Source of the DNA: Candidatus Mediterraneibacter excrementavium
GTDB taxonomy: Bacteria > Bacillota > Clostridia > Lachnospirales > Lachnospiraceae
Direction of reading: 5' to 3'
Assembly: GCA_019120275.1 (NCBI GenBank)
Contig: DWVL01000088.1
Location: 1 to 47,005 of the forward strand
Length of the DNA stretch: 47,005 nucleotides
Within the stretch, counting starts at the first letter, position 1; each line of letters opens with the position of its first letter. Made by a program: the position numbers and the translations under genes. Below the pieces are notes generated by a model. That model was not told the DNA's origin. It made no database searches and saw nothing but the letters and a program-made list of their open reading frames with translations. Below, piece after piece: positions 1,209 to 12,428 of the stretch.

Positions 1209-2477
1209 TTATTCCTCCTGATCTGAATGTTCCTGTGTGCTGTTTCCCGCACTGGATCCCGCAAGCCACCCGGTGCTCCATGCGATCTGCAGATTATATC
1301 CGCCGGTCAGAGCGTCAAGATCCAGTACTTCGCCCGCGAAATACAGTCCGCTTATCAGTTTTGACTCCATCGTTCCTGGATCGATCTGTCTGACAGATAC
1401 GCCTCCTCTTGTAATGATCGCTTCATTATATCCGCGCAGTCCGGTCAGCGTGACAGTAAAGTCCTTGACCAGCCGGACAAATCCGCTGCGTTCTTCTTTT
1501 GTGATCTCATGGACTTTCTTGTCTTGGGGTATGCCCGATCGTTCGATCATAACCGGTCTCAGTTTTGCCGGAAACAGACTGTCCACTGCATTCTTAAACT
1601 GCCGGTTGTGATTCTGTTCAAACTCGCGCAGCACGCGCTTATCCAGCTGTTCCGCAGTCAGCGCGGGTTTAAGGTCAATATGAAGGGTCAGTTCTCTGTC
1701 TTTCAGTATTTTCCCGACAATACTGCTTGCGCTCAGGATCACCGGTCCGGTCACCCCGTAATGGGTAAACAGCATCTCCCCGAATTCCTGATAAAGTTTC
1801 TTTTTGCCGTCCGTGATCCGGATCTCAATGTTCCTCAGCGACAGTCCCATCAGTTCTCCAGCATACCATTCTCTGACTTCCACAGGCACAAGCGATGGAG
1901 AAAGCTCCGTTACTTTGTGCCCGGTATTTCTGGCAAACCGATATCCGTCTCCGGTGGATCCGGTGGACGGGTATGAAATCCCGCCGGTGGCAACGATCAC
2001 TGCATCGCCGCACACCTTCTGTCCGGAGGAAAGAACGATCCCCTGTACGCGGCTGTGCGCTCTGTCCGTAAGGATTTCCTTCACTTCCGCGTGGAGATGC
2101 ATCTGTACACCCAGCCGTTCCATTTCTTTTTCCAGTGCACGGATCACATCTGAAGAGTGGTCTGACACCGGGAATACTCTCCCGCCCCGCTCTGTCTTTG
2201 TCTCTACTCCGTGACGGTTGAAGAAATCGATCGTCTGGTCATTCGTAAATGTATAGAATGCGCTGTACAGGAATTTTGGATTTGTCGTTACCGCATTGAA
2301 AAACTCGCTGATATCCGCGGCATTGGTAATATTGCAGCGGCCTTTTCCCGTTATAAAAAGTTTTTTCCCGAGTTTTTCATTTTTTTCGTACAGTTCTGTC
2401 TGATGTCCGCGTTCCGCTGCGGCAACAGCGGCCATCATTCCCGCGGCTCCGCCGCCGATGATCAGAATTTTACCCAT
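1209..2477 (-). CDS. HI0933/YhiN-family NAD(P)/FAD-dependent flavoprotein
   Basis: A 422-aa predicted FAD-binding oxidoreductase of the HI0933/YhiN family; physiological substrate unknown. The N-terminus has the dinucleotide-binding GxGxxG (GKILIIGGGAAGMMAA), followed by the family block KLGKKLFITGKGRCNITNA, and the C-terminus has GLYFAGEVLDLDALTGGYNL, the second FAD contact region. The start at 2475-2477 lies inside the last codons of the upstream murR-like gene (8-bp overlap) with AAGGAAATG just before it, so translation is probably coupled. An upstream-extended frame is open but lacks a better ribosome site. It is followed 2 bp later by cmk. The association HI0933-cmk-ispH recurs in Lachnospiraceae (general knowledge), without an explained functional link. 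Confidence 0.88.
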   Translation of the reverse strand: MGKILIIGGGAAGMMAAVAAAERGHQTELYEKNEKLGKKLFITGKGRCNITNAADISEFFNAVTTNPKFLYSAFYTFTNDQTIDFFNRHGVETKTERGGRVFPVSDHSSDVIRALEKEMERLGVQMHLHAEVKEILTDRAHSRVQGIVLSSGQKVCGDAVIVATGGISYPSTGSTGDGYRFARNTGHKVTELSPSLVPVEVREWYAGELMGLSLRNIEIRITDGKKKLYQEFGEMLFTHYGVTGPVILSASSIVGKILKDRELTLHIDLKPALTAEQLDKRVLREFEQNHNRQFKNAVDSLFPAKLRPVMIERSGIPQDKKVHEITKEERSGFVRLVKDFTVTLTGLRGYNEAIITRGGVSVRQIDPGTMESKLISGLYFAGEVLDLDALTGGYNLQIAWSTGWLAGSSAGNSTQEHSDQEE

Positions 2478-3414
2478 TTTCATTTCCTTCCGCATCATCT
2501 TCCGGGTCTTCAGGCAGCGAGGCTCCAACAGGATTCAGTTCATCACCGCTGTACACCTGATATTCTCCCCAGATCTTTTCCAGTGTCTCCAGTGTAGATA
2601 CGACTTCCTTCTGTTTTTTCATACAGAGGGCTACAACAAGGGCATTGACCACGCTGAGCGGAGCGACCAGCGAATCCACGATCGATGCCATATCACTGCG
2701 CGCGATCAGATTACAGGATGAATAAAGATTCATCGGCGAATGAATGCTGTCTGTCAGGGTGATCACTTTTGCTTTACGGTTGCTCGCAAATTCAAGCGCC
2801 TTCAGCGTACGCATCGAGTACCGCGGAAAGCTTATGCCGATGATCACATCTTCCCCGCCGATGCGGATCAGCTGTTCAAAAATCTCACTGGAGCTGTTCG
2901 TCGTAACCGGTGTGACATTATCGCACACCAGATTCAGATAAAAACTGAAAAACGAAGCCAGCGGTGCACAGCTCCGGATGCCGATCACATAGATCTTGCG
3001 CGCATTGAGTATGGTATCAATAGCCAGGTTAAAGGCTTTATGGTCGATAACAGCCAGGGTCTGCTTGATCTTGTCGATATCCGACTGCAGGACCGTTTCC
3101 AGTATCTCGCTCTGGCTGATCCTTCCGTATGTCACTTCCATGCGCTGGATCGAATTCAGACGATTCCTGACCAGTTCTTCCAGCGCTTTCTGGAATCCCG
3201 GATATCCTTTATAGCCAAGCTGTATCGCAAAACGGACAACCGTTGACTCACTGACTCCCACTGTTTCCCCCAGTTTTGCCGCAGTCAGAAAAACAGCTTT
3301 ATCATAATTCTGCCGGACATAGTCTGCAAGCCGGCGCTGCCCTTTGCTCATTTTACCGTACCGTTCCTCAATCCGGAGGACCAGTTCATTTGTTGTCGTT
3401 TCTGTCATTTCCAT
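2470..3414 (-). CDS. MurR/RpiR-family transcriptional regulator
   Basis: A 314-aa regulator with an N-terminal HTH_6 domain (about residues 1-80; LTAAKLGETVGVSESTVVRF is the recognition region) and a sugar-phosphate-binding SIS domain (about 125-260; begins near ARKIYVIGIRSCAPL). Members bind phosphosugars (N-acetylmuramate-6-P, ribose-6-P and others) and control adjacent catabolic genes. No sugar phosphate metabolism gene lies next to it here: it sits between an Xaa-Pro aminopeptidase and the HI0933 flavoprotein/cmk pair, so its ligand is not predictable. The acidic, low-complexity tail (PEDPEDDAEGNENG) is unusual for the family. An ATG at 3414 has AAAGGAAAG upstream; ATG 3408 is an alternative. 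Confidence 0.9.
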   Translation of the reverse strand: MEMTETTTNELVLRIEERYGKMSKGQRRLADYVRQNYDKAVFLTAAKLGETVGVSESTVVRFAIQLGYKGYPGFQKALEELVRNRLNSIQRMEVTYGRISQSEILETVLQSDIDKIKQTLAVIDHKAFNLAIDTILNARKIYVIGIRSCAPLASFFSFYLNLVCDNVTPVTTNSSSEIFEQLIRIGGEDVIIGISFPRYSMRTLKALEFASNRKAKVITLTDSIHSPMNLYSSCNLIARSDMASIVDSLVAPLSVVNALVVALCMKKQKEVVSTLETLEKIWGEYQVYSGDELNPVGASLPEDPEDDAEGNENG

Positions 3415-5457: not shown

Positions 5458-7446
5458 TTATTTCCGGTTTCGGTATTGTACAGGAGTGATATTATACATT
5501 TTTTTGAACACCCTGTTAAAGTGCTCCACATTCTGATAACCAACGGATTCCGCAATGCTTTCTACTGTCGCGCTGCTTCCCTTAAGCATGGCGCGCGCCT
5601 TCTTCATACGGATCTTCTTCAATATATCTCCGAAAGTCATGCCTGATTTTTCTTTGATATATTTTGAAAGATACGGTTTTGAAAGAAAGAATTTTTCCGC
5701 CAGGTCATCCAGTGTCACATCTTTGTAATTGGCGTAGATATAATTTGTGATCTCCAGGAGGCGCTCATCTTTTCCCGCCTGGGACTCCGCAATTTCTTTG
5801 ATCTTATTGACAGCTACAACAAGCGCCTCGATGGAAGCCTTAATAATATCCGCGTCGATCCCTACGCCCCAGTAACGCTTTTTGTTGCAGACTACGCCGA
5901 CATAAGCGACCGCCCTTGATGAAGACCCTTTTGTAAGCGAGTGTTCTTCATAGAAAGAAAGTTCATAACTCACATCGAAATAGTGTTTGATCGCGTTGCT
6001 GACTGCGTCCAGACGGCCGTTTCCGACACCGGTGATCGTAAAACTGTTGCTGTTGTGATGGATGGTCGCTTCTGCGATAATGCCGTCTTCCTGTTTGAAG
6101 TGGCACTCGTCTACGGTAAATACCGGTTTTGCATTGATATAATGATCTTCGAAAATACGGTAAATATTGTCCGGTGTAAGCTCTCTGTGGGCTTTGTCGG
6201 ACACATCCTTGACAAGATACCCCACTTCTTCGCGCATTTTTTCCGGAAGGCTGATACCGAAGCTCTGTTTGAGTATATAGTTTACGCCGCCTTTTCCGGA
6301 CTGGCTGTTGATCCGGATAACATCGGAATCATACCTTCTTCCCACATCCTGCGGATCGATCGGGAGATACGGAACACTCCATGTTTGAAGATCATGCTCC
6401 TCTCTCCAGGCCATACCTTTGGCGATCGCATCCTGATGGGATCCGGAAAACGCCGTAAAGACCAGTTCGCCTGCATAAGGCTGTCTCGGAGACACTTTCA
6501 TGCGTGTCACACGCTCGTATACTTCACATATGTCGCTCATATTTGAGAAGTCAAGCTTCGGATCAACGCCCTGTGAGAACATATTCATTGCAAGCGTGAT
6601 GATGTCCACATTTCCGGTGCGCTCCCCGTTTCCGAAAAGCGTACCCTCGATCCGGTCAGCACCTGCAAGGATGCCAAGTTCCGCATCGCTGATCCCTGAT
6701 CCGCGGTCATTGTGGGGGTGCAGGGACAGGATCACATTTTCTCTGTGGAGAAGATGCTTGTTAAAATATTCCACCTGGCTGGCAAATACATGCGGCATCG
6801 CATTTTCCACTGTAGTCGGAAGATTAATGATCGCCTTGTTGTCCGCCGTCGGTTTCCAGATATCAAGAACTGCATTGCACACATCAAGCGCGTAATCCAC
6901 TTCCGTGCCCTGGAAACTCTCGGGACTGTACTCGAATGTAAAATTCCCTGCAGTCTCATCGGCAAGCTTCTTTAAAAGTTCCGCGCCATCCGTGGCGATC
7001 TTCATGACTTCTTCCTTATTCTTCCTGAAAACCTGCTCTCTCTGCGCGACTGACGTAGAATTATATACGTGGATGATCGCATGCGGGGCACCCTTTACAG
7101 CTTCAAACGTACGCTTGATGATATGTTCCCGCGCCTGGGTAAGCACCTGGATCGTCACATCGTCCGGGATCATTTTCTGTTCGATCAGAGCGCGCAGAAA
7201 CTGATATTCTGTTTCGGACGCAGCCGGAAATCCGACCTCGATCACCTTAAATCCGACATCAACCAGCATCTGGAAAAACTCCAGTTTTTCATCCAGGCTC
7301 ATTGGCTCGATAAGTGCCTGGTTGCCGTCCCGAAGATCGACGCTGCACCAGATGGGCGCCTGATCGATCGAATCCTTTTTTACCCAGTCATAGCATGGCT
7401 CCGGCGGCATGAAATAAGATTTTTCATATTTTTTCCAGTTTTCCAT
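5458..7446 (-). CDS. leuA: 2-isopropylmalate synthase (LeuA type 2) fused to a C-terminal AraC-type DNA-binding domain
   Basis: First committed step of leucine synthesis: acetyl-CoA plus 2-ketoisovalerate gives 2-isopropylmalate. In the 662 aa, residues about 25-320 form the HMGL-like TIM barrel (DLRDGNQ 37-43; metal ligands H243 and H245 with N246/D247 in [17 protein letters not shown]). Residues about 435-545 form the LeuA regulatory domain ([29 protein letters not shown]), where leucine binds in characterised enzymes. Ordinary type-2 LeuA ends near 550. Here the same frame continues into about 100 residues of a complete AraC/XylS double HTH: helix-turn-helix 1 at about 577-605 and 2 at about 627-661, ending in the signature [19 protein letters not shown]. 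No stop or frameshift separates the parts. RBS AAGGAG precedes the ATG at 7446. No leuB/C/D lie nearby. The enzyme call is firm; DNA binding is inferred from homology. Confidence 0.95.
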
Positions 7447-7477
7447 TCCAGTACATCTCCTTATATTTTATCAATTT

Positions 7478-7567
7478 GATTGCTTTATTTTATCCTCACT
7501 TATACTATCATACGATATCAGTCTACACCAGTGGCAAAATTAATCACTTGGATTGATTTATTTTAAT
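7478..7567 (-). promoter_or_regulatory. leuA-araC upstream region: 15-bp direct repeat flanking a possible promoter
   Basis: GATTGCTTTATTTTA (7478-7492) and GATTGATTTATTTTA (7551-7565) differ at one base and start 73 bp apart, close to seven helical turns. Between them on the minus strand is a possible promoter, TTGCCA (7532-7537) with TATGAT (7507-7512), though the 19-bp spacer is long. One copy lies upstream of the -35, the other in the leader about 31 bp before the ATG. A small perfect palindrome ATCAATTTGAT lies at 7470-7480. Direct repeats are the usual target form of AraC-family proteins, so autoregulation is plausible; the AT-richness lowers confidence. No T-box (no GGGTGGNACCGCG-like block) is seen. 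Confidence 0.4.
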
Positions 7568-7573
7568 ATCATT

Positions 7574-8797
7574 TTAAATCAGCGCCTGTGCAGCTGTATA
7601 GTTCAGACACTTCATAAACGTCCGGCGTTTCGCCATGCTGTCCGCTGTAAGTTTGAATTCAGCAACAGCCGTGCCATCTACCGTATACCGGAGAGTCCCC
7701 AGCACTTGCCCTTCTGCCACCGGCGCTTCTGTTTTTTCCGGAAGATCTGTCATTCGTTCCAGCCGCTCGTTGCGCCCTGTCAGGATCCGGACCTCTTCTC
7801 CTTCGGCACGCACAGGGATCCGGACGCCCTCCGCACCGGGGAATCCGGGATCAGCCCCGTTTTCTGCGTACACGGAAAGCTGAATATCTTCCGGGCGGAT
7901 AGTCTGATATGTGTAATTCTCCAATGCATAATTCATCAGTTTTTTCGTATCCGCCCATTTGTATCCCCTGTTATACGGCCATCCGCAGGCCAGAAGCGAT
8001 ACGATAAATGTTCTTCCGTCGTTTTCCAGCGCCCCCACATAGCAGTATCCTGCATCCGCGGTAAATCCGGTTTTGCCGGTCAGAGCCCCGTCCATCATTT
8101 TCAGAAATGCATTATGGTTGCTGCAGGAATACTTCTTTGTACCGCTGATATCCGTAAACTCCCATGAATTCGTGCGTGTGATCTGAAGGAACGCTTCCTT
8201 TTCCGGGGACTGCATGATGCAGTACCGCATGATCGCGGCCAGATCAGCCGCTGTCGTGTGATGGATGCCATGGACATCATCCGCGTCCAGACCGTTTGGA
8301 GTTATAAAATATGTAGATCCGCATCCGATCGATTCAGCCTTTTCATTCATCAGATCCGCAAAGTCATCCACGGTGACGCTCACATGTTCGGCAATGGCGA
8401 CGGCCGAATCATTGTGCGATTCCAGCATCAGGGAATACAGCAGGTCTTTCAGACAGAATTCATCGCCTTCTTTCATGCCAAGCCTGACTTCCGGCTGTTC
8501 CTCTGCGTTTCTGCTCACAGTTACTTTTTCTTCCGGACTGCAGTTTTCCAGGGCAAGTATGCAGGTCATGATCTTGGTCGTACTTGCCATAGGCGCCTCA
8601 TCATTCCCGTTTTTCTCAAATAAAATACGCCCTGTACCGGCATCCATCAGGACGGCACATCGGGCGTACAGCTGCGAAGGCAGCACTTCTACATTTTCCG
8701 CAGCACCGGCGCAGAGGCCTGCGGCGGTCATAACAAAAACACCAAAAACAGCGCTTAATACTGCGGCGGTATATTTTCGGAAAGACAGTAATTTCAT
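7574..8797 (-). CDS. D-alanyl-D-alanine carboxypeptidase (S11), first copy
   Basis: Penicillin-binding peptidoglycan D,D-carboxypeptidase, exported and probably membrane attached. The 407-aa product has a signal peptide (residues 1-about 33, hydrophobic core AAVLSAVFGVFVMTAAGL). The S11 triad is visible: S72-x-x-K75 (ASTTK), S127-H-N129 and K242-T-G244. Beyond the catalytic domain a beta-rich S11 C-terminal domain ends the chain. The frame begins with a GTG directly followed by ATG (MK); the ATG at 8795-8797 is preferred because AAAGGAA is six bases upstream. A TTTACA-N7-TGTAAA inverted repeat (8808-8826) overlaps the ribosome site. It follows scpB by 62 bp in the same direction, an arrangement common in Clostridia. 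Confidence 0.93.
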   Translation of the reverse strand: MKLLSFRKYTAAVLSAVFGVFVMTAAGLCAGAAENVEVLPSQLYARCAVLMDAGTGRILFEKNGNDEAPMASTTKIMTCILALENCSPEEKVTVSRNAEEQPEVRLGMKEGDEFCLKDLLYSLMLESHNDSAVAIAEHVSVTVDDFADLMNEKAESIGCGSTYFITPNGLDADDVHGIHHTTAADLAAIMRYCIMQSPEKEAFLQITRTNSWEFTDISGTKKYSCSNHNAFLKMMDGALTGKTGFTADAGYCYVGALENDGRTFIVSLLACGWPYNRGYKWADTKKLMNYALENYTYQTIRPEDIQLSVYAENGADPGFPGAEGVRIPVRAEGEEVRILTGRNERLERMTDLPEKTEAPVAEGQVLGTLRYTVDGTAVAEFKLTADSMAKRRTFMKCLNYTAAQALI

Positions 8798-8859
8798 CAC
8801 GGGTTCCTTTACAGATCATTTGTAAATTATATGTATCAGTCTTCCCGAATAGACTGCTG

Positions 8860-11228: not shown

Positions 11229-12428
11229 TCACGGCAGTATACGCTGTGCCGCACTTTCCAGACAGTCCATGTAAGAAGCTTTGTCAACTCCGGCCGGGGC
11301 AATGAGATCCGTACGGCCGATTTCTTTTCCGTCCAGCGTATATATGATCTGTCCGAGTATGTCTCCTTTCTTTACCGGAGCCCTGACTGCATCCGGGATC
11401 TCAACCCTTCGTTCGATCAGGCTGAGACTGGCTCCTTCTGTATCCAGATATGCGAAATCTCCGCTCCGTTCCGCCATGACGGTTTCTTCCACACCCTGTT
11501 CGACCGGGACCGGCCCGACCCCATCCGTACTGCTGTCCGTATACAGCTGGCATTTGGCAAAGCCATAATTCAGCAGTCTGACAGCATCGGCAAAACGGTC
11601 TTTTGAATTTTCAGCAGCCATGATAACCGCGATCAGTTCGATCCCGTCCTTTTCCGCCGTTGCAGACACACAGAATCCCGCGTCGCCGGTAGACCCTGTC
11701 TTCAGTCCGGTTGTATATTCGTACTGGCGAACAAGTTTGTTCGTATTGGAAAGGCCGAATTCCGACTCTCCTTTTGAAGTCCGGTGGACAATGTTTTCCA
11801 TCCAGATCATGGAGTACTCATGGATCCGGGGATATTTAACGATCAGTTCTCTGGACATGCGTGCGATATCTTCAGCACTTGTCTCATGCCCATCCGCATC
11901 GAGACCGTTACAGTTGACAAAATGCGTGTTCGTCATGCCGAGATCTTTTGCCCGCCGGTTCATTTGTGAAACAAATTCCTCTTCATTTCCACAGATATGT
12001 TCCGCCATGGCTACACACGCGTCATTGGCGCTTGCTACAGCGATGCATTTCAGCATCGTATCAACCGTCTGCGTTTCCCCCGGCTCCAGATAGACCTGCG
12101 ATCCGCCCATGGAAGCCGCATATTCCGACACTGTCACCTCGTCTTCCGGATGGATCTTTCCTTCCTCCAGCGCGTCAAAGATCAGAAGCATGGTCATGAT
12201 TTTTGTCACACTGGCAGGCGGCCGCGGCGTATCCGGATCTTTCTCATAAATGATCTTTCCGGTAGAGGCCTCCATCAGGACCGCCGAAGGCGCGGAAATC
12301 TCCACCGGGGACTCTTCCGCGCCAGATCCCGTCTGCGTCCCCCCTTCTTCCGCGTATACAGGACCGGGCGGCAATATGGCAGCTGCCAGCAGGACCAACC
12401 CAAGTATCAATGCAGAAATACGTTTCAT
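11229..12428 (-). CDS. D-alanyl-D-alanine carboxypeptidase (S11), second copy
   Basis: A 399-aa S11 penicillin-binding protein acting on peptidoglycan stem peptides outside the membrane. Signal peptide residues 1-26 (ISALILGLVLLAAAILPPGPVYA). Catalytic motifs: S73-V-T-K76, S133-A-N135 and K243-T-G245. A Ser/Glu/Gly-rich spacer (28-43) separates the signal from the catalytic domain. It differs clearly from the copy at 7574-8797 (S-H-N there, S-A-N here), so this is an old paralogue pair, not a recent duplication. In sporulators one such enzyme (DacF/DacB-like) often tunes cortex cross-linking; which copy would do so cannot be told. The start at 12428 follows GGGAGGAAAA. Confidence 0.93.
   Translation of the reverse strand: MKRISALILGLVLLAAAILPPGPVYAEEGGTQTGSGAEESPVEISAPSAVLMEASTGKIIYEKDPDTPRPPASVTKIMTMLLIFDALEEGKIHPEDEVTVSEYAASMGGSQVYLEPGETQTVDTMLKCIAVASANDACVAMAEHICGNEEEFVSQMNRRAKDLGMTNTHFVNCNGLDADGHETSAEDIARMSRELIVKYPRIHEYSMIWMENIVHRTSKGESEFGLSNTNKLVRQYEYTTGLKTGSTGDAGFCVSATAEKDGIELIAVIMAAENSKDRFADAVRLLNYGFAKCQLYTDSSTDGVGPVPVEQGVEETVMAERSGDFAYLDTEGASLSLIERRVEIPDAVRAPVKKGDILGQIIYTLDGKEIGRTDLIAPAGVDKASYMDCLESAAQRILP

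Follow-up and report, generated by a model that had tools for sequence, protein, structure and literature searches.

The 47,005-nucleotide stretch of DNA analyzed here (the window; contig DWVL01000088.1 of Candidatus Mediterraneibacter excrementavium, family Lachnospiraceae) carries on its minus strand a single reading frame, at 5458 to 7446, in which leuA, encoding 2-isopropylmalate synthase, runs on into an AraC-type helix-turn-helix (HTH) domain; we term this gene leuA-HTH. The plus-strand reading of the same interval is broken by internal stops. The gene and the parts of its product are as follows.

5458-7446, minus strand: leuA-HTH gene, 662 amino acids, with ATG at 7446 and the stop codon at 5460-5458
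6526-7356, minus strand: catalytic barrel, HMGL-like, residues 31 to 307 (Pfam E value, 7e-71)
6268-6468, minus strand: IPMS_D2, residues 327 to 393 (Pfam E value, 9.8e-34)
5800-6183, minus strand: LeuA_dimer regulatory domain, residues 422 to 549 (Pfam E value, 9.3e-26)
5767-5799, minus strand: variable linker, residues 550 to 560 (median dN/dS, 0.156, versus 0.012 to 0.025 in the domains)
5461-5766, minus strand: AraC-type double HTH, residues 561 to 662 (HTH_18 match, helices in the model, median dN/dS of 0.012)

The same-strand neighbors of leuA-HTH are an M24 peptidase gene downstream and a D-Ala-D-Ala carboxypeptidase gene upstream; two D-Ala-D-Ala carboxypeptidase genes (7574-8800 and 11229-12428, minus strand) flank scpB, scpA, and a phosphoesterase gene.

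The succession of barrel, IPMS_D2, and LeuA_dimer, all above curated cutoffs, is that of a type-2 2-isopropylmalate synthase, and the corresponding NCBIfam model, PRK03739, matches with 805 bits (cutoff, 455). The tail holds two HTH motifs within about 100 residues, as expected of an AraC/XylS DNA-binding domain, and exceeds the Pfam cutoffs both for HTH_18 (residues 582 to 661; E value, 1.4e-21; 77 bits against 33.6) and for HTH_AraC (residues 624 to 660; 47.6 bits against 26.6). By sequence, the closest solved protein is the LeuA of Mycobacterium tuberculosis, aligned with residues 26 to 517 and 521 to 548, and the tail (residues 566 to 660, approximately) matches the AraC-type domains of response regulators 6swi and 3lsg. 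A single-chain AlphaFold2 model, built on an alignment of 55 rows, one of which (L108) ends before the HTH, has a pLDDT of 82.3 and places seven helices in residues 561 to 660, which matches the helix count of AraC double HTH domains; because its pTM is 0.58, the model does not fix the placement of the HTH. Foldseek searches with the whole model ranked M. tuberculosis LeuA at the top and returned no AraC-type chain among the best 50 rows, as expected for a query dominated by its large enzyme part. As the preliminary description of this DNA had proposed, the frame together with the Pfam and NCBIfam matches makes it certain that a complete type-2 2-isopropylmalate synthase and a complete AraC double HTH are joined in one frame.

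That description had also considered that the fusion might occur in this assembly only, but 35 of 37 genomes from the genus, a count that includes the genome of the window, encode it at full length, the other two holding fragments (residues 1 to 159 in G011 and residues 615 to 662, on the first bases of a contig, in G024), and across many Lachnospiraceae genera. Among the named strains that carry the fused frame are [Ruminococcus] torques ATCC 27756, Coprococcus comes MSK.16.63, Hespellia stercorisuis DSM 15480, and Muricomes intestini DSM 29489. At 1e-60, LeuA was matched in at least 363 of 397 Lachnospiraceae genomes, and among the matches listed, 32 of the 34 with at least 77% identity are open frames of 666 to 721 amino acids, the remaining two being a contig end (G223) and a frame break (G121). 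The recurrence of the same frame throughout the genus, in many other genera, and in cultured strains refutes an assembly or sequencing error that fused two separate genes, to which we assign a negligible probability and in favor of which the window offers nothing, although frame breaks near the leuA/HTH junction in a few single loci (L062, L184, and L186) show that errors in the opposite direction, or genuine splits, happen as well. In L184 and L186, for neither of which a second genome was found in the genus, the leuA stop is directly followed by the conserved HTH in another reading frame; the breaks in all three loci may be real splits or sequencing errors. An apparent second type of LeuA fusion, with frames of about 1,000 amino acids in family f17 (L349 and L350), was rejected upon inspection: leuC lies close behind an unfused leuA in the same frame, and reading through the stops that separate them mimics a fusion.

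Outside the Lachnospiraceae, full-length fusions were detected in three genomes of a class-level sample (n = 391) and in one of a phylum-level sample (n = 398), and the full-length copies among the matches listed for an order-level sample (n = 295) all belong to Lachnospiraceae. In these samples the fusion occurs in many Lachnospiraceae genera and in four genomes of other families (G907, G773, G909, and G1343), whose copies may derive from gene transfer or from contaminating contigs. When the LeuA parts of 104 proteins are placed in a tree, unfused members nest several times among fused ones (7 changes), and a tree of 160 rows needs 8 changes, at least 6 of them on supported branches. Our reading is that of a single early fusion followed by several losses of the tail, the counts of changes alone leaving their direction unfixed.

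The HTH is among the best-kept parts of the protein. Of its positions 566 to 662 (n = 97), 29 are conserved at 95% or more among 91 fused proteins, and 11 (S594, G602, F605, G636, Y637, E641, H642, F643, R645, F647, and P655) are identical in all 91; the degeneration of contact residues among homologs that had been contemplated at the outset is therefore not what we find. Over 741 pairs from 39 loci of the genus, median dN/dS amounts to 0.020 in the barrel, 0.025 in both D2 and the dimer domain, 0.156 in the linker, and 0.012 in the HTH, ratios that are rough, with silent sites near saturation; median pN is likewise lowest in the HTH (0.027, versus 0.041 in the barrel). These comparisons indicate that purifying selection is stronger on the HTH than on the catalytic barrel.

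The enzyme part is kept as well. Eight catalytic or metal positions (R39, D40, E176, H243, H245, N279, H337, and Y360) are invariant in 160 of 160 rows and presumably correspond to R80, D81, E218, H285, H287, N321, H379, and Y410 of M. tuberculosis LeuA. Among the presumed leucine-lining positions of the M. tuberculosis enzyme, those at G475, N476, and G477 are kept in 100 of 100 HTH-bearing rows, but D stands at the equivalent of A536 in 99 of 100, and F, V, T, or I at that of Y554; by these positions, fused proteins have kept the leucine pocket only in part. In the window's own genome, leuA-HTH is the sole LeuA found, and leuC is present.

Alignments of upstream regions show that a conserved operator-like element, AAAATAnATCAAnnnAAnTGATTAAATTT, precedes fused leuA. 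The features of this region in the window are as follows.

7536-7564, minus strand: IR1, operator-like inverted repeat, the best-scoring site of the window (36.2 bits), at about -69 to -41 from the predicted start and surrounded by a conserved block at about 7530-7569
7502-7510, minus strand: extended -10, TGATAGTAT, with its hexamer at 7507-7502, 28 bp after IR1
7463-7491, minus strand: IR2, second operator-like inverted repeat (23.0 bits), at about +5 to +33 and 73 bp from IR1

With a 29-bp matrix built from fused loci, the element scores at least 12 bits within 300 bp upstream in 70 of a first set of 91 fused loci, which includes near-duplicates of single organisms from two sources. Dinucleotide shuffles (20 per locus) reach 12 bits in 0.1% of cases and 15 bits never, and in 607,643 further bases of the same loci there are 14 matches in 12 loci, all 390 to 822 bp upstream of fused leuA, with a T-box core between element and gene in every one of the 12. 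Within the window, only IR1, IR2, and IR1 read in reverse exceed 8 bits.

A set of 160 loci, which excludes off-contig frames, loci with fewer than 200 upstream bases, and rows with an identical LeuA part, separates the two classes of genes: a copy of the element that reaches 12 bits lies within 1 kb in 90 of 100 HTH-bearing and 0 of 60 HTH-less leuA loci, so that, as in regulators of the PutA/BirA kind, a site at the gene's own promoter is linked to the DNA-binding part. Counted as HTH-bearing are L183, whose contig ends within the HTH, as well as L184 and L186, with the HTH in another frame; when the latter two are counted strictly as unfused, the figures become 88 of 98 and 2 of 62. The ten HTH-bearing loci without a 12-bit element are L138, L142, L156, L163, L166, L170, L173, L176, L180, and L181, of which L156 (9.8 bits) and L170 (9.2 bits) have weaker sites, and one unfused locus, L193, has a weak site of 8.4 bits at -720. 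A small relatedness-aware test gave a mean of 4.6 concordant among 6 independent pairs and no discordant ones (median P = 0.0625). Across leuA loci, by these sequence comparisons, the presence of the element goes with the presence of the HTH.

Since the first matrix had been trained on fused loci, held-out tests were run. All 8 newly fetched fused loci carry the element (17.3 to 38.9 bits), against none of 52 newly fetched unfused loci (maximum, 5.0 bits), and a second matrix, whose training loci all had 82% identity or more, recovers, at 5 bits, 74 of 83 other HTH-bearing loci and 0 of 60 HTH-less ones. Several genomes provide natural controls. Unfused paralogs in G907, G773, G082, and G168 score 0.5 or less, whereas the fused copies of these genomes have the element; in the four genomes from other families, the fused genes carry it at 17.4, 22.1, 37.8, and 33.6 bits; G1387, a relative with an unfused gene and 73% identity, scores -17.9; and L184 (30.5 bits) and L186 (21.7 bits), where the leuA frame is unfused and an HTH frame lies right behind it, have retained it.

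The position of IR1 relative to the promoter is nearly constant. The hexamer of a TGnTAnnnT element lies exactly 28 bp after IR1 in 74 of the 90 element-bearing loci and at 27 to 29 bp in 80 of them, and the place of the -35 holds little information across the 90. Such fixed spacing with a weak or missing -35 is that of a class II-like AraC-type promoter, the positions here being counted from a transcription start predicted near 7495; with this start, IR1 comes close to the I1-I2 site of AraC, which spans about -69 to -35. A second site of at least 5 bits within 150 bp is present in 51 of the 90 loci, at a spacing of 72 to 76 bp in 37 of the 51 and at others including 63, 64, and 40 to 42 bp. 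The phase between IR1 and IR2 at 10.5 bp per turn has a mean of 0.00 and an R of 0.70 (R of 0.72 at 11 bp), statistics that are descriptive, many of the loci being related.

In the window's own genome, a 14-base pattern that tolerated two mismatches gave 23 matches, versus 2 for the reversed control, with fewer than 2 mismatches only at leuA IR1; around these matches the matrix scored leuA at 36.2 bits and L200 at 16.5, and no other locus above 1.3. L200 was set aside as a target: it sits in a terminator-like inverted repeat ending in a T run between two genes. Over 30 genomes, a pattern of 17 fixed bases, with the same tolerance, gave 155 matches; the control gave 71, so that the excess is real. 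Among the matches listed, exact ones lay at leuA in 13 of 13 cases, and those with one mismatch lay at leuA in 9 of 17, at leuC in 1, and elsewhere in 7; two of these seven, L219 and L225, score 6.5 and 7.3 bits. Further weak targets beyond leuA and leuC may thus exist, judging by these matches.

A scan of leuC (30 genomes with the locus, of 54 searched) found the element in 1 of 25 genomes with a fused leuA and in 0 of 5 others. In genus g232 of the Lachnospiraceae, 5 of 9 genomes (loci L224, L282, L286, L287, and L289) have the element ahead of leuC, at a distance of about 110 bp; it was not seen there in the remaining 24 fused-leuA genomes of the scan. The preliminary description had envisaged ilv, leu, and transport genes as targets, and a regulon of that width finds no backing so far, the strong sites being those at leuA and at leuC of g232.

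Many unfused leuA genes have an RNA leader. A T-box core precedes leuA in 46 of 60 HTH-less versus 13 of 100 HTH-bearing loci; of nine core-bearing loci tried, eight were confirmed with the Rfam T-box model RF00230 (L347 was missed), and the model found none in L001. The core lies behind the element in L145, L148, L169, and nine other fused loci, as well as in L362, and such fused leuA genes may be controlled serially by protein and by RNA. L292, where leuA is unfused, has an Rfam match to the Clostridiales-1 RNA close to its T-box (2458-2616, minus strand; 91.2 bits).

Taken together, we hold it to be probable that an active 2-isopropylmalate synthase is also a transcription factor of its own gene, with leuA and, in one genus, leuC as its targets. 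The original idea that the enzyme has a second action, on DNA, has in this way received comparative support, from a conserved HTH under selection and from the element linked to it; the wide regulon once attached to that idea has so far gained none. The HTH likely controls the promoter of its own gene, the fused protein is probably an activator switched by leucine, and, from domain content, the signal could plausibly be leucine, acetyl-CoA, or ketoisovalerate. Counting against this reading are the ten HTH-bearing loci that lack a 12-bit site, the small size of the relatedness-aware test, the altered positions of the leucine pocket, and the surplus of matches over the reversed control in both pattern searches.

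In the mechanism that we propose, the dimer formed by the LeuA parts would place the HTH domains on IR1, at about -69 to -41, and the bound protein would compensate for the missing -35 and activate the extended -10 promoter in the style of AraC-type activators. Leucine, bound at the LeuA_dimer domain directly before the HTH, would weaken activation while inhibiting the enzyme, such that one binding event could set both the activity and the amount of the enzyme. In the window's genus and close genera, IR2, downstream of the start and about seven helical turns from IR1, could serve in a repressing loop or block. The full version of this proposal, in which the enzyme's allosteric domain would act as sensor for an AraC-type activator of the gene that encodes it (enzyme and transcription both on at low leucine and both off at high leucine, possibly through an IR1-IR2 loop) and the fusion is a protein-based alternative to the T-box that is mobile between families together with its operator, is tentative, and we would put it at somewhat short of even.

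Among other readings, the strongest is an autorepressor at its own promoter with leucine as corepressor, as in PutA and BirA, which we regard as unlikely. IR2, at about +5 to +33 from the predicted start, occupies the position of a repressor site, and the known enzyme-regulators PutA and BirA are repressors (PMC6978683). The site shared across genera, however, is IR1, which precedes the promoter by a constant distance, with little conservation at the -35, and the second site reaches 5 bits in just 51 of the 90 loci with the element. Less probable again is that another regulator binds the element and the HTH tail serves some other purpose or other sites: the genome encodes many further AraC-type proteins, and the element was identified by conservation alone, but it is kept or lost with the HTH even between paralogs of the same genome, and a separate regulator would need to follow the same pattern. 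That the HTH is past DNA binding and now a structural or dimerization tail we consider very improbable; several lineages have lost the tail and kept the enzyme, as this reading would have it, yet both halves of the HTH are conserved, its dN/dS is the lowest of the protein, and a DNA element is linked to it.

The proposed activator combines traits of several known systems. M. tuberculosis LeuA (PDB 1sr9 and 3fig; PRK03739), the best solved relative by both sequence and fold, shares the whole enzyme, including LeuA_dimer, and, unlike the fusion, is without a DNA-binding tail. AraC/XylS proteins (by HTH sequence, the YesN-like response regulators 3lsg and 6swi) share the C-terminal double HTH, and AraC shares the promoter layout, with a site that precedes an extended -10 by a fixed distance; the sensor part here, in contrast, is a metabolic enzyme, and instead of the direct repeats of AraC sites, the leuA-HTH site consists mainly of an inverted repeat. 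Ada-type proteins also unite an AraC-type HTH and an enzyme-like part in one protein, with a role in DNA repair. The T-box leader of leuA (RF00230), found before leuA in many relatives too, is RNA and involves no protein sensor. PutA and BirA are described as combining a pathway enzyme and a regulator of its own genes in one protein, in both cases a repressor (PMC6978683); they resemble the fusion in that one protein is both enzyme and, here by prediction, regulator of its own gene, and they differ from it in their enzymes and pathways and in being repressors rather than the activator proposed here. By analogy, the fusion would resemble PutA and BirA in principle and AraC at the promoter.

In the titles and abstract openings of the open-license literature, we found no description of an enzyme-HTH protein of this kind; as far as searched, the joining of this enzyme to this domain is undescribed, and what is new here is the conserved operator-like element linked to the HTH. 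Proteins that enzyme models name merely 2-isopropylmalate synthase may, this case warns, hold a second role. The known DNA element and the cultured strains make the fusion directly testable, and a leucine-responsive switch is a possible use. If the proposal is true, feedback inhibition and gene control would rest on one protein, perhaps on one binding site, and it would be the enzyme itself, as opposed to a separate regulator or an RNA leader alone, that governs how a major group of gut bacteria makes leucine.
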